Part shown: one piece after another, positions 1,640 through 11,496 of the stretch | Numbering within the stretch: position 1 is the stretch's first letter | Layout: the number at the start of each line of letters is the position of its first letter | NCBI GenBank assembly: GCA_017508045.1 | Contig: JAFVZT010000030.1 | Coordinates: 30,160-94,159, forward strand | Source of the DNA: Oscillospiraceae bacterium | GTDB lineage: Bacteria > Bacillota > Clostridia > Oscillospirales > Oscillospiraceae | Direction of reading: 5' to 3' | DNA: 64,000 nucleotides | Position numbers and translations under genes: made by a program | Notes under the pieces: generated by a model | The model's input: only the letters and a program-made list of their open reading frames with translations | What the model was told of the DNA's origin: nothing | Database searches by the model: none

Positions 1640-1892
1640 GGCATAAAAAAACCCTGCATTACGCAGAGGACGAGTTTTACCCCGTGGTACCACCTCAATT
1701 TACCGCCATATGGCAGCCTCATCCGGTTCCTACAGACCGTAACGCAGTATCGGGCGCACCCGTCTCCGCCTACTACAGGTTCAGCAGAGCCGCTCAGAAA
1801 GGAATTCGGCGCTGTCCTCTGCTGCCTTGCACCGGACGGCAGCTCTCTGAAAAAGGATAGGGCGCTTACTGGTTTTCGTCATCGCGTTTATT
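1640..1892 (-). promoter_or_regulatory. T-box riboswitch leader upstream of the acyl-CoA synthetase
   Basis: Read on the minus strand, the leader begins with the typical Stem I opening (GATGACGAAAACCAGTAA). It continues with the AGAGAG bulge region, a terminal loop with GGTGCAAGGCAG, and the conserved T-box GGTGGTACCACGG (complement of 1683-1694). It ends in a GC-rich hairpin followed by seven T residues (complement of 1645-1669), the expected competing terminator. The synthetase ATG lies about 40 nt downstream. T-boxes bind uncharged tRNA and allow readthrough when one amino acid is scarce. The specifier loop reads CGAATTCC; UUC (Phe), AUU (Ile) or UCC (Ser) are possible, and the choice is not settled here. 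The UGGU bulge implies a tRNA with discriminator base A. Confidence 0.88.
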
Positions 1893-2006: not shown

Positions 2007-2028
2007 TGGTGGAGACAACAGGACTCGA
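2007..2028 (-). repeat. Left attachment-site repeat (tRNA-Val 3' end)
   Basis: These 22 bp are identical to 11420-11441, which is the 3' end of the intact tRNA-Val(CAC), including CCA, the acceptor strand and part of the T arm. After base 2028 the two copies diverge. This is the direct repeat left by integration into the 3' end of a tRNA gene. Confidence 0.85.
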
Positions 2029-2033
2029 TTCAG

Positions 2034-3611
2034 TCAGGGATCGGCTCCGTCGAGCCGTCGCCGGCGGCGCTCATCCGCGCCGCATTTGATCTGTTCGAGT
2101 CCTGCCGCCTGAATACCTATACCAAAAAGGAAACCCCATCCGATTGGATGGGGTTTCCTTTTTGGTGGAGTCGATGATGTTAAAGACGAACTATTTATCT
2201 CTTTGAGAGAAACCTTTTTAGATTTGTTTTTGTAGTTGAATGTGATGATGAAATAATCATCGTAAAGATATATGGAGTTAACGAAGCTGTCAATCAGTTT
2301 TTGCCGATCTGACTGTACCGACATATCAAGCTTGCGGTAGTTATAGAGGGCAAAAGCAATTTGCTCCTTTGGAATAACAGGGTTCCGAATTTCAAGCTGA
2401 ATCATATCTGCTTCAATGTTCTTTTTCTGAGCTTCTAAATCGTCAAGCATCTGTTTTGTCGTATCAGAGTAAATACCAAGTGCCAACGCTTCGGTAAGAT
2501 TCTTAAGCTTGAACTGAACCTCTGCAAGCTGAGATTTTAACATGACAGATTCTGCACTTTCGAGCTCTTGGAACCGGTACACACGCTCAGCAAGTTCTTC
2601 AATTGCAGAATCATCGGAAAGAAATTCAAAGATTGTATTGATAACGTAATTCTCAATCCATTCTTTGCGCACGGTTTTCTTGTCGCACTTCTTTTTCTTT
2701 GCCTGATTGCATTTGTAATAGCGGTACTTGGTTTCGGTATGGCTTGTACCGATCTCACCGGTCATCATAGCCCCGCATTTGCCGCAGAATAGGTGTGTAG
2801 TCAGAATATAGTCATCTTCGCTCCTGTGCATCGCAGGAGCCTTCTTGTTGCGTTTCATACGTTCTTGCACAGCATTGAACAGCCCATCATCAATCAGCGC
2901 TGGAATGCCTTTAGGAACAACGAAATCTCCGAACTTATATTCACCAATATACTTGCGGTTCGTTAAGATACGGAAGATGGCGTTATAGTTCATAAAGTTA
3001 CCACGATTGGTAACGCCACGGCTTTTCATAATTTCCACGATCTCAGAGATTTTCTTGCCATCGTTATAAAGTGTGAATATGTCCTTTATAATCGGAGCAG
3101 TGTCCTCGTCAATCTGAAAATGCTTGTCGCCATCGATATAGTATCCAATCGGGGCGCGGACACCATTGCAACGCAGTTTGATTGCATTTTCGGTCAAACC
3201 ACGTTTGATCTTTTCTGCAAGCTCTGCGGAGTAGTATTCCGCAAAGCCTTCCAGTATTGCTTCGAGCAAAACACCGTCTGCACCCTCGGAGATGTTTTCA
3301 GTTGCAGACACTACCTTAACATTGTTTTTCTTCAGCGTAGCTTTGTAAAAAGCAGAGTCATAACGGTTACGAGCAAAGCGGTCAAGTTTCCATACAATAA
3401 CTAAATCAAACAAACCCTTGCTGCTGTCATCTATCATTTTCCGAAACTCGGGTCTGTTGTCTGTCTTCGCCGATAGTGCGCGGTCAATATATGTACCGAT
3501 GATCTCAATGCCGTTCTTCTCCGCAAAGGCCTTGTTCTCACGAAGTTGACCTTCGATAGATTCTTCACGCTGATTGTCCGATGAATATCGAGCGTAAATT
3601 ACGGCTTTCAT
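2034..3611 (-). CDS. Large serine recombinase (resolvase/Recombinase/zinc-ribbon)
   Basis: Site-specific DNA recombinase of the large serine family, 525 residues. The N-terminal resolvase domain starts IYARYSSDNQREESIEGQ with the catalytic serine at about residue 10 and continues with VIVWKLDRFARNRYD. A Recombinase domain follows (about 150-270), then a zinc ribbon with CGKCG and a YYKCNQ...C pair (about 270-320), then a coiled-coil region rich in Glu, Lys and Leu (about 345-400). The start is fixed by AGGAGG 7-8 nt upstream. The last 44 or so residues (after SSTPP) read through a perfect hairpin and attachment-site sequence and are probably not native. The gene follows abiH closely, within the same direction. 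Confidence 0.93.
   Translation of the reverse strand: MKAVIYARYSSDNQREESIEGQLRENKAFAEKNGIEIIGTYIDRALSAKTDNRPEFRKMIDDSSKGLFDLVIVWKLDRFARNRYDSAFYKATLKKNNVKVVSATENISEGADGVLLEAILEGFAEYYSAELAEKIKRGLTENAIKLRCNGVRAPIGYYIDGDKHFQIDEDTAPIIKDIFTLYNDGKKISEIVEIMKSRGVTNRGNFMNYNAIFRILTNRKYIGEYKFGDFVVPKGIPALIDDGLFNAVQERMKRNKKAPAMHRSEDDYILTTHLFCGKCGAMMTGEIGTSHTETKYRYYKCNQAKKKKCDKKTVRKEWIENYVINTIFEFLSDDSAIEELAERVYRFQELESAESVMLKSQLAEVQFKLKNLTEALALGIYSDTTKQMLDDLEAQKKNIEADMIQLEIRNPVIPKEQIAFALYNYRKLDMSVQSDRQKLIDSFVNSIYLYDDYFIITFNYKNKSKKVSLKEINSSSLTSSTPPKRKPHPIGWGFLFGIGIQAAGLEQIKCGADERRRRRLDGADP
2126..2163. terminator. Perfect 17-bp hairpin inside the recombinase 3' end
   Basis: aaaaggaaaccccatcc and its exact reverse complement are separated by gatt. 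On the minus strand the arm ends in CCTTTT, so it could act as a terminator. It lies within the last 45 codons of the recombinase reading frame, which supports the idea that this reading frame runs past its original end. Confidence 0.65.
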
Positions 3612-3615
3612 TTAT

Positions 3616-4536
3616 TTACCTCCTTAAATCATAGAATTCTTTTGAGTCTATCAGTTCGAAACGTTTTGGCACAAATCCTTGTTCAATAAGGCTTTTGTGC
3701 ATATATTCTTTCTCGCTTTCTCTATAGTAGTATATTTTCCATTTGCTTTTATGTTGTGTTACATCATCAATTTGCCTGAAATATGGAAGGTCAACTCCTG
3801 CAACGGAATGACCTGCTACTATGATTTCGTCAAACGGATATTTTCAAAGATATGTTAGCTTGTGCTTATAATTATTTATGTTTTTATGCGTTGTACGATA
3901 GTAGTCGTGTAAAACAGCACAAATACTTACCTCTGCTTCGTTTCTGCTTATTTGAGCATGGTTTTTTCGCCCTTTTATATCTTCAATGCGATTTGAGTTT
4001 CCGTGACCAAGAATAGGATCGTCATCTGCGTTGTGTAAAGAACCATGAATATGTAAAACTCTGCCGGAATCAATACCATATACATTTTCTAAAACAGAAG
4101 TATAGTTAAAGGTAATGAACTGGTCATCGGTGCTTTTGAGTATTGATGACACTATTGGCAAGGTATCGCGTATCCTGATGGTTCTAACCCAATGCTTAAG
4201 ATAGCCGGCCAATAAGTCAATATACTTATATTCATTGCGGAAATATTCTCGCAACGTATCTTCAATTCCAACAGGGCCGCTTTCTAACCCCATATCAAGA
4301 GCCAGGGCATTCTCAATAATAACTGATTCATTGATGTTTGCAAGGTTTGTTTCGAAATCGTTCCATAGCAGATTTCTTTTATACTCTTCTGATGCTCCAG
4401 GATAGATTTCATATTTTTGTTCAAAAGATTCTAAAAAGTCTGGATGCGTTTTCTCAAGATAGGTTCTAAAATCCCAATATGCGGTTGGCAAGTCATGTGC
4501 TTGGTCAAATCCGTTACCAATTATGTATAACTTCAT
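3616..4536 (-). pseudogene. abiH: AbiH-family abortive-infection gene with an in-frame TGA
   Basis: The frame from ATG 4534-4536 gives 230 residues beginning KLYIIGNGFDQAHDLPTAYW, the hallmark AbiH N-terminus, and includes FITFNYTSVLE and VLHIHGSLH. It meets TGA at 3844-3846. Reading on in the same frame gives KYPFDEIIVAGHSVAGVDLP and about 70 more residues up to TAA at 3616-3618. The VAGHS..GVDLPYF block is the usual AbiH C-terminal motif, so the whole gene would be 306 codons, a normal length. It overlaps the upstream XRE gene by ATGA, and its 3' end carries the recombinase ribosome-binding site. It may be a nonsense mutant, a split protein or a recoded UGA. AbiH proteins abort phage infection in lactococci; activity here is not established. 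Confidence 0.87.
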
Positions 4537-7429: not shown

Positions 7430-7478
7430 AAATTAAAATGCGAGATAGCAGTAGTATTATTTAACCCACTATAACAAC

Positions 7479-7515
7479 GCACGTCAGATGGTAACGTCTG
7501 ACGTGCATTTTCGTT
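7479..7515 (+). terminator. Terminator of the PadR operon
   Basis: gcacgtcaga / tctgacgtgc with an 8-nt loop, followed by attttcgtt. It closes the four-gene unit. Confidence 0.7.
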
Positions 7516-7559
7516 ATAAAAAGTTTCCATTTCGAAACGAAAAAAGTTGGGGTGTACCC

Positions 7560-7588
7560 CTTGACTTTTTGACCCAAAACTCATATGT
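7560..7588 (+). promoter_or_regulatory. Candidate promoter of the structured RNA
   Basis: TTGACT at 7560-7565 and TATGTT at 7583-7588 are spaced 17 bp, with no credible reading frame downstream. It would start transcription near 7595. Confidence 0.5.
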
Positions 7589-7589
7589 T

Positions 7590-8300
7590 CTAAATAGAGG
7601 GTTAAAGCTCTTTCCTTCGTTTTTGCTCTTCGGACAGGCAAGGAGCTTGTTCGGAGTCAAAATAAATAACTAATGTTTTAATTATGAAGGAGGACATTTA
7701 CGTCAAACACTCTCTAAGCACGGAAAATCTCTGTCCTATGGCTTTACGGACAGACGGAGGAAGGCACATGAAACCTGAATTGTCGGGTAGTGCCACAAAC
7801 CTCTGAAAACGGCAGCATCGAAAGATGAAGATCCTGCAGCCTTGACGCACCAAGGAAAGCCCTACTGCACGGTGACAGCAAAAGCATCTGCACAAGCAAT
7901 GGCAAATGAAAAGATCAGTCCCAACTTCAAGATGAGCACGGGGAAATTGCCAAGACACAAAATTTGCAGACGAAAATTGATCCAAGCCCCTTATGGTCAC
8001 TACAATAGCAAAGTGCGGAACCACTTGTACGGTGTGGACGAAAATCGGATAGCATTACGCTTTCAGGCTTCGGTAGCCTGCTGACCAAAATCCTGTTTTC
8101 GTACAGAAGTACCGAAGTTTATGGAATTTTAATCGTTATGAAAATTCCCACCGAACGGAGCCGTAGTTGGGGGCTTCGTAGCAATCCTTGATTGTTAATC
8201 GGTGAAGTGCGCGAGGTATGTATATGCCTCCACTCTCATTTTGGGAGCATGCACTTCGGAGCGCCGCAAGGTGACTCCATAGTACTCACCCTTATGGGAA
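7590..8300 (+). ncRNA. Candidate large structured non-coding RNA (ornate, ROOL/GOLLD-like class possible)
   Basis: About 700 nt without a plausible protein but with dense, nested pairing. Examples are: 7731-7736/7748-7753; a nested three-helix unit 7755-7760/7800-7805, 7763-7767/7790-7794 and 7773-7778/7783-7788; CATC-GAAA-GATG at 7816-7827 (GNRA loop); 7840-7844/7851-7855; 7913-7917/7978-7982; 8064-8069/8075-8080; an 8-bp perfect arm 8123-8130/8141-8148; 8204-8210/8251-8257 enclosing 8213-8219/8224-8230 and 8233-8237/8243-8247; and a bulged hairpin 8258-8278 with a GCAA tetraloop. A promoter-like sequence precedes it. Size, GNRA loops, mobile-element location and tRNA proximity resemble the ROOL and GOLLD classes of large bacterial RNAs, but I cannot match a consensus, so the class assignment is a guess. 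Confidence 0.6.
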
Positions 8301-8334
8301 AATTGAATATGATTTTCGTTTTGATATGATATAT

Positions 8335-8396
8335 GACGAGTTCCGCGTGGTGGTTGTCTGACCTACAACGACAGCAGCAGAAAGCGGAACGACTCG
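8335..8396. other. Hairpin 1 of the repeat-bounded array
   Basis: GAG-TTCCGC (8338-8346) pairs with GCGGAA-c-GACTC (8384-8395), enclosing 37 nt. Repeat copies lie immediately before it and about 25 nt after it. Confidence 0.6.
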
Positions 8397-8454
8397 TTTC
8401 GAAATGACAGAATGACTGTCTTTTCGATATGATATATGACTATCCTTTCGATAG

Positions 8455-8499
8455 GGCAACAGTTTCTTTAAGACCGCAGGTCATAAAGAAACTGTTGCC
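8455..8499. other. Hairpin 2 of the array, nearly perfect 45-nt palindrome
   Basis: A 16-bp arm (8455-8470) pairs perfectly with 8484-8499. The loop itself folds as GACC-GCA-GGTC, so almost the whole segment is one stem. There is no T-run after it, so it is not an obvious terminator. Confidence 0.75.
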
Positions 8500-8518
8500 G
8501 GGCGAAGCCATAAAAGTG

Positions 8519-8620
8519 GCTTACGTCAAGGCATATTGGACGATTTGCATAGACCTCAAGTACAAAACAAGACTAAACCAATTGTAGATGTCAATGGGGA
8601 TACTATGCCTTGACGTAAGC
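8519..8620. other. Hairpin 3 of the array, 17-bp arms with a 68-nt loop
   Basis: GCTTACGTCAAGGCATA (8519-8535) and its exact complement (8604-8620) enclose 68 nt with no reading frame. Perfect long arms around an unrelated loop suggest a selected structure, such as a small mobile unit, recombination site or RNA stem. Confidence 0.7.
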
Positions 8621-8935
8621 TCCTTTCAAAATGACCTATGATATTCTATAATTTCAATATGATAAAAGATGATTCTCATTTCGAAATGAAGTCCTATAGA
8701 TTAATCATAGATAGGCGTTTTTTTGCCTGCGGCGTTCCGGCTGCCCGCCGCTTGATACGAGATCAAGCACCGTACAGTCGGCTAAAATAATCCTATAAAG
8801 ATATGACTATCTTTTCGAAATGGAGCGACAGCGACCACTATCATTTCGATATGATATATGACTGTCGTTTCGAAATCCGCGAAAAATTTTCGTCACGAGA
8901 ATTATTTTCGTCAATAAAATAGATTTTGGTCATGA

Positions 8936-8982
8936 GACCGCAGAGATGGAAGATGCACTTCCGTCCCTGCGGTCTTTTTATT
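8936..8982 (+). terminator. Strong terminator
   Basis: gaccgcag (8936-8943) / ctgcggtc (8967-8974), with an inner ggaag/cttcc pairing, followed by tttttatttt on the plus strand. It may end the transcript that crosses the structured RNA and hairpin region. Confidence 0.75.
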
Positions 8983-9000
8983 TTCGTCAGCAAACGAAAA

Positions 9001-9200
9001 AGTAACTTTTCTTGAAACTCGTACCGAAATTCCGTAAATTGTATATGACCGATCCCCAAAGAAAAAAGTAAGTTTTCTTGAAGATTAAAAAATTTCGCCT
9101 ATGTTATAGACGAAAACAAACCCATATTTTCGTTCTCAGACCACCGAAAAACAAGAAATTTTCAAAAAAAGCCCAAAATCCGTCAAGTTTTCTTGAAACT
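9001..9200. repeat. Three direct repeats AASTTTTCTTGAA upstream of the integrase
   Basis: aacttttcttgaaact at 9004-9019, aagttttcttgaagat at 9070-9085 and aagttttcttgaaact at 9185-9200. Spaced direct repeats beside an integrase gene are typical of arm-type integrase or excisionase binding sites; binding here is inference. The rest of 8983-9286 has no gene but includes the palindrome TTTTCGT-cagcaa-ACGAAAA at 8981-9000. Confidence 0.6.
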
Positions 9201-9292
9201 CAACCATAATCTCTCATATCTTTTTAAATAGAACGAGCGAAAATATCCGGAGTTTTTGCAAATTCAATCTATCGGAAAGGAGGTTAATGTCG

Positions 9293-10240
9293 ATGGGAAA
9301 GACAATGACAGGTGAAGAACGGTTGATTCAAGATTTTCGCAGAATGATGAAAGGTATCAACGAGAATGGCTACAAAACCCGTGCAGCCTACGGAAACCAC
9401 GTAGAGCAATTCTTAAAATTCTACTGGCGAAAGTTTCACGGTCAGAAGCTTGCAAATGTGCGCGGCGATCATATCCGAGCCTATGTGAAAGAGATGCAGG
9501 AAAAAGGATTGTCACCGTCCACGATCAAATCCCGTCTGTCCGCAATCCGCTTTGCACACGAAAAAGCCGGTGGTAAGAGACGTCTGCCGGACAATAAGGA
9601 ATTAGGATTGGAAAAGCGCAAGGTAGGTAAAGAGGACAGAGCATGGACAGCCGATGAAGTCAGGGGCGGCTTGACCGTAGCGAAGAACATGGGTCGTATA
9701 GATGCCTACAACGCAATCTATATCGGTTATGCGTTTGGTCTTAGAATTGAAGAGGTTTGTCGCATAAGGAAAGAGGATGTTGAAAAAGCATTGAAGTATG
9801 ACGGATTGACCATCAAAGGCAAGGGCGGTCAGGTCAGAACATATCCCGTGCAATTTGAAGTTCAGAAAAAGGCTTTGCAATATTTCTACGACTACGCAAG
9901 AAAGAACAATCTGATGCCCCGCGATTATGTAATTAGTCCCCAAGGCAAAGGCGGTGTGGAAAGACAGATCAATTCTCTTGAAAATTGGATGTACGCCAAT
10001 CGGAACAAGTTCGCTATGAAGAATCGCAAGGATGACATGAGAGACGGAAAGAAGCCGAGAAGCGAAAATATCACTTGGCACGGCTTGCGCCACGCAAGAG
10101 CGCAGATACAGTACGCCAAGTATAAAGACGAAGGGCGCAAAGACCCCAAAAGAATGACCAGCGAAACCTTGGGACATCACAGACCCGACATCACCAACGT
10201 GTATTTGGCAGAATTGCCGCAGAGAAAGAAAAACAAATAA
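9293..10240 (+). CDS. Tyrosine recombinase (phage integrase family)
   Basis: 315 residues from the ATG at 9293, chosen because AAGGAGG is 9 nt upstream; the ATG at 9287 is only 3 nt from it. The N-terminal SAM-like core-binding domain (about 10-95) includes SPSTIKSRLSAIRFAHEKAG. The catalytic domain has the first arginine in AFGLRIEEVCR, then HGLRHARAQ (HxxR), then LGHHRPDITNVYLAEL with the nucleophilic tyrosine near the C-terminus. It cuts and joins attachment sites as a covalent 3'-phosphotyrosine enzyme. As the only tyrosine integrase in an island ending in a tRNA 3' end, it is the best candidate for its mobility. A small gene follows at once. Confidence 0.92.
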   Translation: MGKTMTGEERLIQDFRRMMKGINENGYKTRAAYGNHVEQFLKFYWRKFHGQKLANVRGDHIRAYVKEMQEKGLSPSTIKSRLSAIRFAHEKAGGKRRLPDNKELGLEKRKVGKEDRAWTADEVRGGLTVAKNMGRIDAYNAIYIGYAFGLRIEEVCRIRKEDVEKALKYDGLTIKGKGGQVRTYPVQFEVQKKALQYFYDYARKNNLMPRDYVISPQGKGGVERQINSLENWMYANRNKFAMKNRKDDMRDGKKPRSENITWHGLRHARAQIQYAKYKDEGRKDPKRMTSETLGHHRPDITNVYLAELPQRKKNK

Positions 10241-10259: not shown

Positions 10260-10454
10260 ATGCCGAGAAAAAAGAAAATTCCTCGTAATGATTTAGGTAT
10301 CCCCGAATATGAAATGGAATCTTTAGCAAGAATGCTTTTACCGATCCTCAAAAAGTATCTTGATTCAGAAGAAGGAAAGCGGGATTGGCAGGAATGGCAA
10401 GCCCGAAGAAAACAGAGTGCCGAGAGCACCGATAGCAAGGAAATTACCGAGTGA
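10260..10454 (+). CDS. Small basic hypothetical protein downstream of the integrase
   Basis: 64 residues, unrecognised. It starts 19 nt after the integrase stop behind AAAGAAAGGAT, so it is probably co-transcribed. The N-terminus is very basic (MPRKKKIPRN), the centre is a predicted helix (YEMESLARMLLPILKKYLDS) and the tail is polar. Size and position would suit an excisionase or recombination accessory factor, but no family motif is visible. Confidence 0.6.
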   Translation: MPRKKKIPRNDLGIPEYEMESLARMLLPILKKYLDSEEGKRDWQEWQARRKQSAESTDSKEITE

Positions 10455-11419: not shown

Positions 11420-11441
11420 TGGTGGAGACAACAGGACTCGA
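11420..11441 (-). repeat. Right attachment-site repeat (tRNA-Val 3' end)
   Basis: Identical to 2007-2028; it forms the last 22 bases of the intact tRNA-Val gene. Integration here keeps the tRNA functional. Confidence 0.85.
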
Positions 11442-11496
11442 ACCTGTGACCTCATGCGTGTGAAGCATGCGCTCTAACCAGCTGAGCTATGCCTCC
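11420..11496 (-). tRNA. tRNA-Val (anticodon CAC)
   Basis: Read on the minus strand it folds into a standard cloverleaf: acceptor GGAGGCA/TGTCTCC with one G-T pair, D arm GCTC...GAGC, anticodon arm CATGC-TTCACAC-GCATG with anticodon CAC, T arm ACAGG-TTCGAGT-CCTGT, discriminator A and encoded CCA. CAC reads the valine codon GUG. Its last 22 bases are the right copy of the island attachment repeat. Confidence 0.95.

Follow-up and report, generated by a model that had tools for sequence, protein, structure and literature searches.

A candidate family of large structured RNAs upstream of a tyrosine recombinase gene in mobile islands of gut Clostridia

HEARO, the omega RNA of IscB, is a structured RNA whose gene adjoins that of a mobile-element enzyme, of IscB type. 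The available part of one source describes ROOL as an ornate RNA of about 600 nt that mobile elements carry, frequently close to tRNA genes, and that occurs in prophages and phages, with no protein partner identified, and GOLLD as a very large RNA of mobile elements, again often near tRNA genes (PMC12286853).

We analyzed a region within a 64,000-nt stretch of DNA (the window) from an incomplete Oscillospiraceae genome (1.46 Mb, 76% complete). The initial annotation had suggested here a large ornate non-coding RNA in a tRNA-Val island, belonging either to a family such as ROOL or GOLLD or to a new class. Comparison with relatives supports the large structured RNA, showing a predicted plus-strand fold of about 0.7 kb (0.5–1.0 kb in relatives), conserved and covarying, upstream of a tyrosine recombinase gene, int1, within mobile islands of Clostridia from the gut (Table 1).

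The Rfam 15 scan at gathering cut-offs, which did find a T-box and a tRNA in the window, gave no match in the RNA region or in loci L030, L029, L069, L036 and L040, and the sub-threshold matches included no ROOL, GOLLD, OLE or HEARO. Because no Rfam 15 family matches, the RNA is not a member of these four families as Rfam models them; comparison with relatives favors the new class instead. A group I or II intron was rejected, as there was no match to an intron family and the region sits between complete reading frames. The accessible part of the open literature (PMC) yielded no account of an RNA like this one, although it is possibly listed as an unnamed motif in subscription papers or in the supplements of large motif surveys (e.g. 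PMC8040213).

Table 1. Features of the RNA region and of the surrounding island, in window coordinates.
Feature	Position	Strand	Remarks
22-bp direct repeat, left copy (island end)	2007..2028	.	same sequence as tRNA-Val 3' end (11420-11441)
CcrB-like serine recombinase	2034..3611	-	5 bases from left repeat; below CcrB cut-off
Terminator-like hairpin 3' of upstream gene	7479..7506	+	scan; L079 counterpart with changed paired letters (by eye)
Putative RNA promoter	7561..7589	+	TTGACT-N17-TATGTT, 9/12 positions
Core of the large structured RNA (predicted non-coding)	7590..8290	+	fold z -6.05; 82% relative; window + L079 alignment fold z -5.7 and -5.1
5' leader hairpin	7621..7662	+	12-bp stem 7628-7639/7645-7656; read in sequence and in window/L079 fold
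GNRA-capped stem	7816..7827	+	GAAA in window, GCAA in L079
Two GACGAAAA motifs (7969, 8037)	7968..8044	+	recur in relatives
Conserved 3' domain	8123..8256	+	P1 8123-8130/8141-8148, P2 8149-8154/8199-8204, P3 8205-8210/8251-8256, with inner hairpins
Short degenerate repeats around TTTCGA(A/T)ATGATATATGACT	8315..8878	+	genome search with up to 3 mismatches: 3 matches, all in island
Hairpin CTATC-GATAG and hairpin beta	8440..8499	+	fold z -10.6
Hairpin gamma, long stem and large loop	8513..8626	+	sequence and fold
Intrinsic terminator	8934..8976	+	folding energy -30.3 kcal/mol (z -8.0); L079 and L078 have counterparts
int1, XerC/D-like tyrosine recombinase	9287..10240	+	Pfam Phage_integrase; NCBIfam XerC/XerD far below cut-offs
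64-aa protein	10260..10454	+	also adjoins int1 in L075, L076; present in module-less L108
22-bp direct repeat, right copy	11420..11441	.	inside tRNA-Val(cac) 11420-11496 (-)

Relatives and the conserved 3' domain

BLASTN against 199 relative genomes gave matches in four: the one that holds the window, G097 (75% over the first 135 bases) and two whose matches, L003 and L004, were judged on reading to be chance. Another match, L100 (twin L095), was likewise put down to chance once L100 had been read. With int1 as the bait, 17 of 297 genomes gave a homologue (E at most 1e-20), and a scan of genome contigs yielded 41 int1 loci, with titles naming mostly Oscillospiraceae, Clostridia or Lachnospiraceae MAGs and, in 22 cases, ruminant cecum, colon or rectum. 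For 20 of the 41 int1 matches the contig ends less than 1.5 kb upstream of the start of the match, which suggests assembly breaks in the repeat/RNA region.

One locus, L079, is a full relative, 82% identical over 630 nt and lying upstream of an int1 homologue. Two distant groups carry a region of 0.7–1.0 kb in the same place, upstream of int1, which BLASTN of the 199 genomes did not report: the first comprises L046, L047, L048, L049, L050, L069 and L090 (the L046 group), and the second L056, L057, L059, L061 and L065. A further distant member, L078 (on the contig of L002 and L040), has about 0.5 kb of the RNA.

Covariation in homologues, whose absence had been named as refuting the initial proposal, is present in the 3' domain. 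The alignment of 14 sequences comprises P1, P2 with two hairpins and P3 with two hairpins. Its covariation is 0.206 versus 0.138 ± 0.010 in shuffled alignments, a value reached by none of 500 shuffles and by no slid version of the structure (at most 0.129), and 16 of 38 pairs show two-sided change. Without the window and L079 (12 sequences) covariation is 0.169 versus 0.114 (0/500 shuffles), with two-sided change in 7 of 31 pairs; in this test one slid version equals the unslid structure in the number of two-sided cells (13). The count of further pair types is unremarkable, being reached by 70 of 500 shuffles with 14 sequences and by 27 of 500 with 12. Among the elements noticed initially in the window, the perfect 8-bp arm is P1, with two-sided changes in two of seven counted pairs, and the multi-helix 3' unit is conserved as P2, P3 and P3b, its inner hairpin P3a being variable (65% of cells paired). 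The two inner hairpins of P2 align poorly, with pairing in 43% and 63% of cells of the 14-sequence alignment.

The strongest single result is the match of a covariance model to the window, a joint and independent test of structure and sequence. This model (R2), built from the 12 distant sequences only, with the window and L079 left out, finds window positions 8123–8254 at E 5.3e-9 when 115 kb are searched and at E 6.7e-8 in the whole genome of origin; it also finds L079 at 9.7e-6 and L078 at 0.003.

The 3' domain lies upstream of int1 in 13 of the 21 loci that have at least 1.5 kb of upstream sequence. The others are five loci with enough upstream sequence in which the models find no RNA (L052, L055, L067, L071 and L073), two int1 fragments (L082 and L084), and L074, whose record title names Lapin and which looks like a divergent member by eye, found by neither model. 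Among the 297 relatives the 3' domain was matched in eight genomes, of which seven were left after G127 had been judged false on reading L120, the one read of L120 and L123. In a sample of 391 Clostridia-class genomes, with stricter filters, the model found the genome of origin only, once a match in G870, which reads as coding sequence by eye, had been judged false. BLASTN gave no match for window positions 7430–9290 in plasmids and phages, for L079 in plasmids or for L030 in plasmids and phages, and two int1 scans and two exact RNA patterns found no relative in viral contigs. The beta-hairpin pattern occurred in 14 viral contigs and was taken as chance; none of the 14 contained the 3' domain (model R1).

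Extent, strand and coding potential

The segment 7590–8300, for which nested helices had been claimed, folds at -216.1 kcal/mol, far beyond the -191.3 ± 4.1 kcal/mol of 20 dinucleotide shuffles (z -6.05). The stretch with the 5' leader hairpin (7621–7662) matches L002 at 75%. Both GNRA-capped stems proposed in this segment are present, the first with GAAA at 7820 and with GCAA on the same stem in L079; the second, GCAA at 8266, is not conserved, since it is absent from L079 and the distant groups have another hairpin (by eye).

The proposed limits proved too narrow, as conserved hairpins also lie at 8440–8626. Aligned with L079, the tail folds with z -9.1 (8300–8650) and -5.1 (8650–8985), the hairpin at 8330–8400 being weak (z -2.3). 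Hairpin beta, collected with a regular expression from 17 loci, is paired in 254 of 272 cells and has two-sided changes at 8 of 16 positions; the 17 loci hold just four distinct arm forms, and beta was selected by its inner letters, so that only the outer pairs are informative.

Upstream, the promoter-like sequence noticed initially is present: TTGACT, together with the letters after it, is shared by L079, L078 and L107 (a module-less locus), the -10 letters are less well kept, and the promoter scan alone says little because it gives 15 such sites in the region versus 3.7 in shuffles. Downstream, the strong terminator was recovered by folding, a simple terminator scan not having listed it, and is likely the 3' end of the transcript. 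Because a promoter-like box on the 5' side and a terminator on the 3' side both have counterparts in relatives, the transcript probably extends from 7590 to about 8980; we infer transcription from about 7590 with an end near 8976, that is, about 1.4 kb including the hairpin/repeat tail.

To determine the strand, consensus folds of three groups were compared with column-shuffled alignments (15 shuffles each). On the plus strand z was -5.1 for the window with L079 and -12.7 and -8.1 for the two larger groups; on the minus strand it was -3.3, -8.1 and -5.7, respectively, above chance in all three groups. Two-sided pairs on the plus strand numbered 22 and 20 in the larger groups versus shuffle maxima of 13 and 11, and 11 for the window with L079 alone, which is within shuffles (mean 6.8, maximum 13). 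On the minus strand they numbered 11, 16 and 17 versus maxima of 11, 12 and 10, the larger groups again exceeding shuffles. In P1, P2 and P3b one-sided changes keep a G-U pair on the plus strand in 16 cells versus three unpaired cells. The plus strand was taken as the sense strand because it folds better in all three groups and because G-U pairs are kept on it.

The longest stop-to-stop stretch in 7590–8290, 118 aa on the minus strand, compares with a mean of 93 and a maximum of 136 in shuffles (n = 30). In nine of ten cores (the window and nine relatives) the open stretches are within the range of their own shuffles, the exception being L048 with 153 aa on the minus strand versus a maximum of 140. 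Minus-strand open stretches of 124–189 aa recur in the L046 group; they were read as chance and not as coding because their ends shift between loci and differences are even across codon positions in all five pairs (e.g. 16, 16, 12), with 10–17 gap columns. Given these open stretches and the lack of codon-position bias, a coding region was rejected for either strand. The initial reading that there is no credible gene agrees with this, no conserved reading frame having been found in the window and relatives. The region thus combines conserved covarying structure with the lack of a conserved ORF, the general criterion for a large structured bacterial non-coding RNA.

The island and the recombinase module

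The RNA region is part of an island of about 9.4 kb between two 22-bp repeats of the tRNA-Val(cac) 3' end. The island contains the CcrB-like serine recombinase, which is likely its integrase, the RNA region, int1, the 64-aa protein and an unknown 235-aa protein, as well as AbiH, HTH regulator, PadR, HAAS, DUF4097 and cytidine deaminase genes. The AbiH-like abortive infection gene is at 3844–4536 (minus strand), and a T-box leader is found at 1663–1891 (minus strand), just beyond the left island end.

The integration systems near int1 differ between loci: an HTH gene with a serine recombinase; an excisionase with a Tn916-like integrase; or an excisionase with a different tyrosine integrase that shares about 25% identity with the Tn916-like one ("excisionase" and "Tn916-like" being labels that we presume to fit these neighbors). 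Pairs of int1 that are 87–95% identical differ in the neighboring integration enzymes; L046 and L048 share 94% identity in int1 and 51% in the second integrase. Because such closely similar int1 genes adjoin different integration systems, the RNA, the repeats and int1 together behave like a transferable module that, to judge from these sequences, seems to travel as one, separately from the integration genes. For the same reason int1 is probably not the enzyme integrating the island, and we rejected it as such also in view of the serine recombinase next to the left repeat.

Several other arrangements were observed around these loci. In L107/L108 (G638; about L107 1505–2080) the same promoter and a short leader are accompanied by an excisionase-like gene and the 64-aa gene, but the RNA, the repeats and int1 are missing. 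The L046 group has a small XRE-type regulator and another tiny ORF 5' of the RNA (L036 1751–1987 and counterparts); no such regulator was found in the window. Many relatives, as seen by eye, have a second conserved, structured-looking leader 3' of int1, before the integration genes (L046 6030–6330, L058 1818–2030, L083 375–500 and others). Its parts are GTCCC..GGGACTGATATATA and two hairpins, GGCGGTGRC and GCCTCCGGCRGAAANGGAGGC, the latter in a reading frame that varies between loci; by eye the window is without it.

Possible roles and comparison with known RNAs

We propose, with moderate confidence, that these loci represent a previously undescribed family of large non-coding RNAs with conserved structure, which act in trans as a scaffold controlling the recombinase module; a trans-acting scaffold or regulator of this module appears to be the most likely function. 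The RNA would be transcribed as a discrete molecule from about 7590, would end at the terminator near 8976 and would act in trans as a scaffold, either alone or with int1 or a regulator of the element, and so control the module. A role in trans is suggested by the putative promoter of its own, the terminator that, in the window's group, separates the RNA from int1, and the constant neighbor int1.

Alternatively, the RNA could be a very long 5' untranslated region that resembles an attenuator or riboswitch and controls transcription or translation of int1 in cis, from the same transcript. In the loci examined the RNA is on the strand of int1 and upstream of it; in the L046 group it opens with a Shine-Dalgarno sequence, an ATG and a tiny variable ORF, as in leader-peptide attenuators, and by eye no clear, strong terminator is seen between the RNA and int1. 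However, the window's group has both a strong terminator and a promoter-like stretch of its own (AAGTTTTCTTGAAACTC, about 9185–9222) between the RNA and int1, and neither the window nor L079 has an ATG for the tiny ORF, so that its translation is not general. The size and complexity of this RNA are, to our knowledge, beyond those of known attenuators. Control in cis seems rather doubtful.

It is unlikely that the region functions at the DNA level, with its hairpins and repeats serving as sites of recombination or transfer (attC-like single strands in folded form, arm sites of int1 or an origin) and the fold of the RNA sense being secondary. Repeat arrays and the long Watson-Crick hairpins beta and gamma beside a tyrosine recombinase would fit such sites, and beta, all of whose pairs are Watson-Crick, would suit folded DNA too. 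GACGAAAA occurs one to three times in each of 14 modules and its complement zero to three times per module (none in L046 and L056), shuffle means being at most 0.15; the motifs in the RNA and the complement near int1 may be protein sites or long-range contacts. On the other hand, the 3' domain keeps G-U pairs on the plus strand, which folds better in all three groups, a GNRA loop is exchanged (GAAA/GCAA), a promoter and a terminator are predicted, and the region is about 2.4 kb or more away from either island end.

An RNA-only assembly, that is, a homo-oligomer like ROOL and GOLLD, is quite improbable: size, complexity, mobile setting and the nearby tRNA gene are as described for these RNAs, but neither model matches, and the available part of the source does not mention a tie to one recombinase family (PMC12286853).

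The RNA, the repeat/hairpin array and int1 could form a self-contained, transferable control module acquired by different integrative elements, in which a tyrosine recombinase would work with a dedicated giant RNA whose structure directs or licenses site-specific recombination; we offer this only tentatively and hold it to be rather improbable. Few bacterial RNAs of such size and complexity are known, and the functions of most are open; here the recurrent protein neighbor int1 provides a testable handle. A recombinase module common to islands with different integration enzymes is also a level of mobile-element organization worth testing.

In summary, the RNA shares features with each of the four described families, while having no Rfam match to any of them. 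Like HEARO, it lies beside a gene for a mobile-element enzyme, but the partner here is a tyrosine recombinase. Like OLE, as far as the available part of its description goes, it is an ornate RNA of Bacillota on the scale of about 600 nt, but its setting is mobile. It differs from ROOL in its link to a tyrosine recombinase and repeats and, within the viral contigs and phage records searched, in having no relative there, ROOL being described from prophages and phages; in size, ornate fold, mobile-element setting and nearby tRNA gene the two are alike, as far as the available part of the source describes ROOL (PMC12286853). Finally, no tRNA gene was found within this RNA, in which it is unlike GOLLD, and it resembles GOLLD, as described in the same part of that source, in being a very large RNA in a mobile element near a tRNA gene (PMC12286853).
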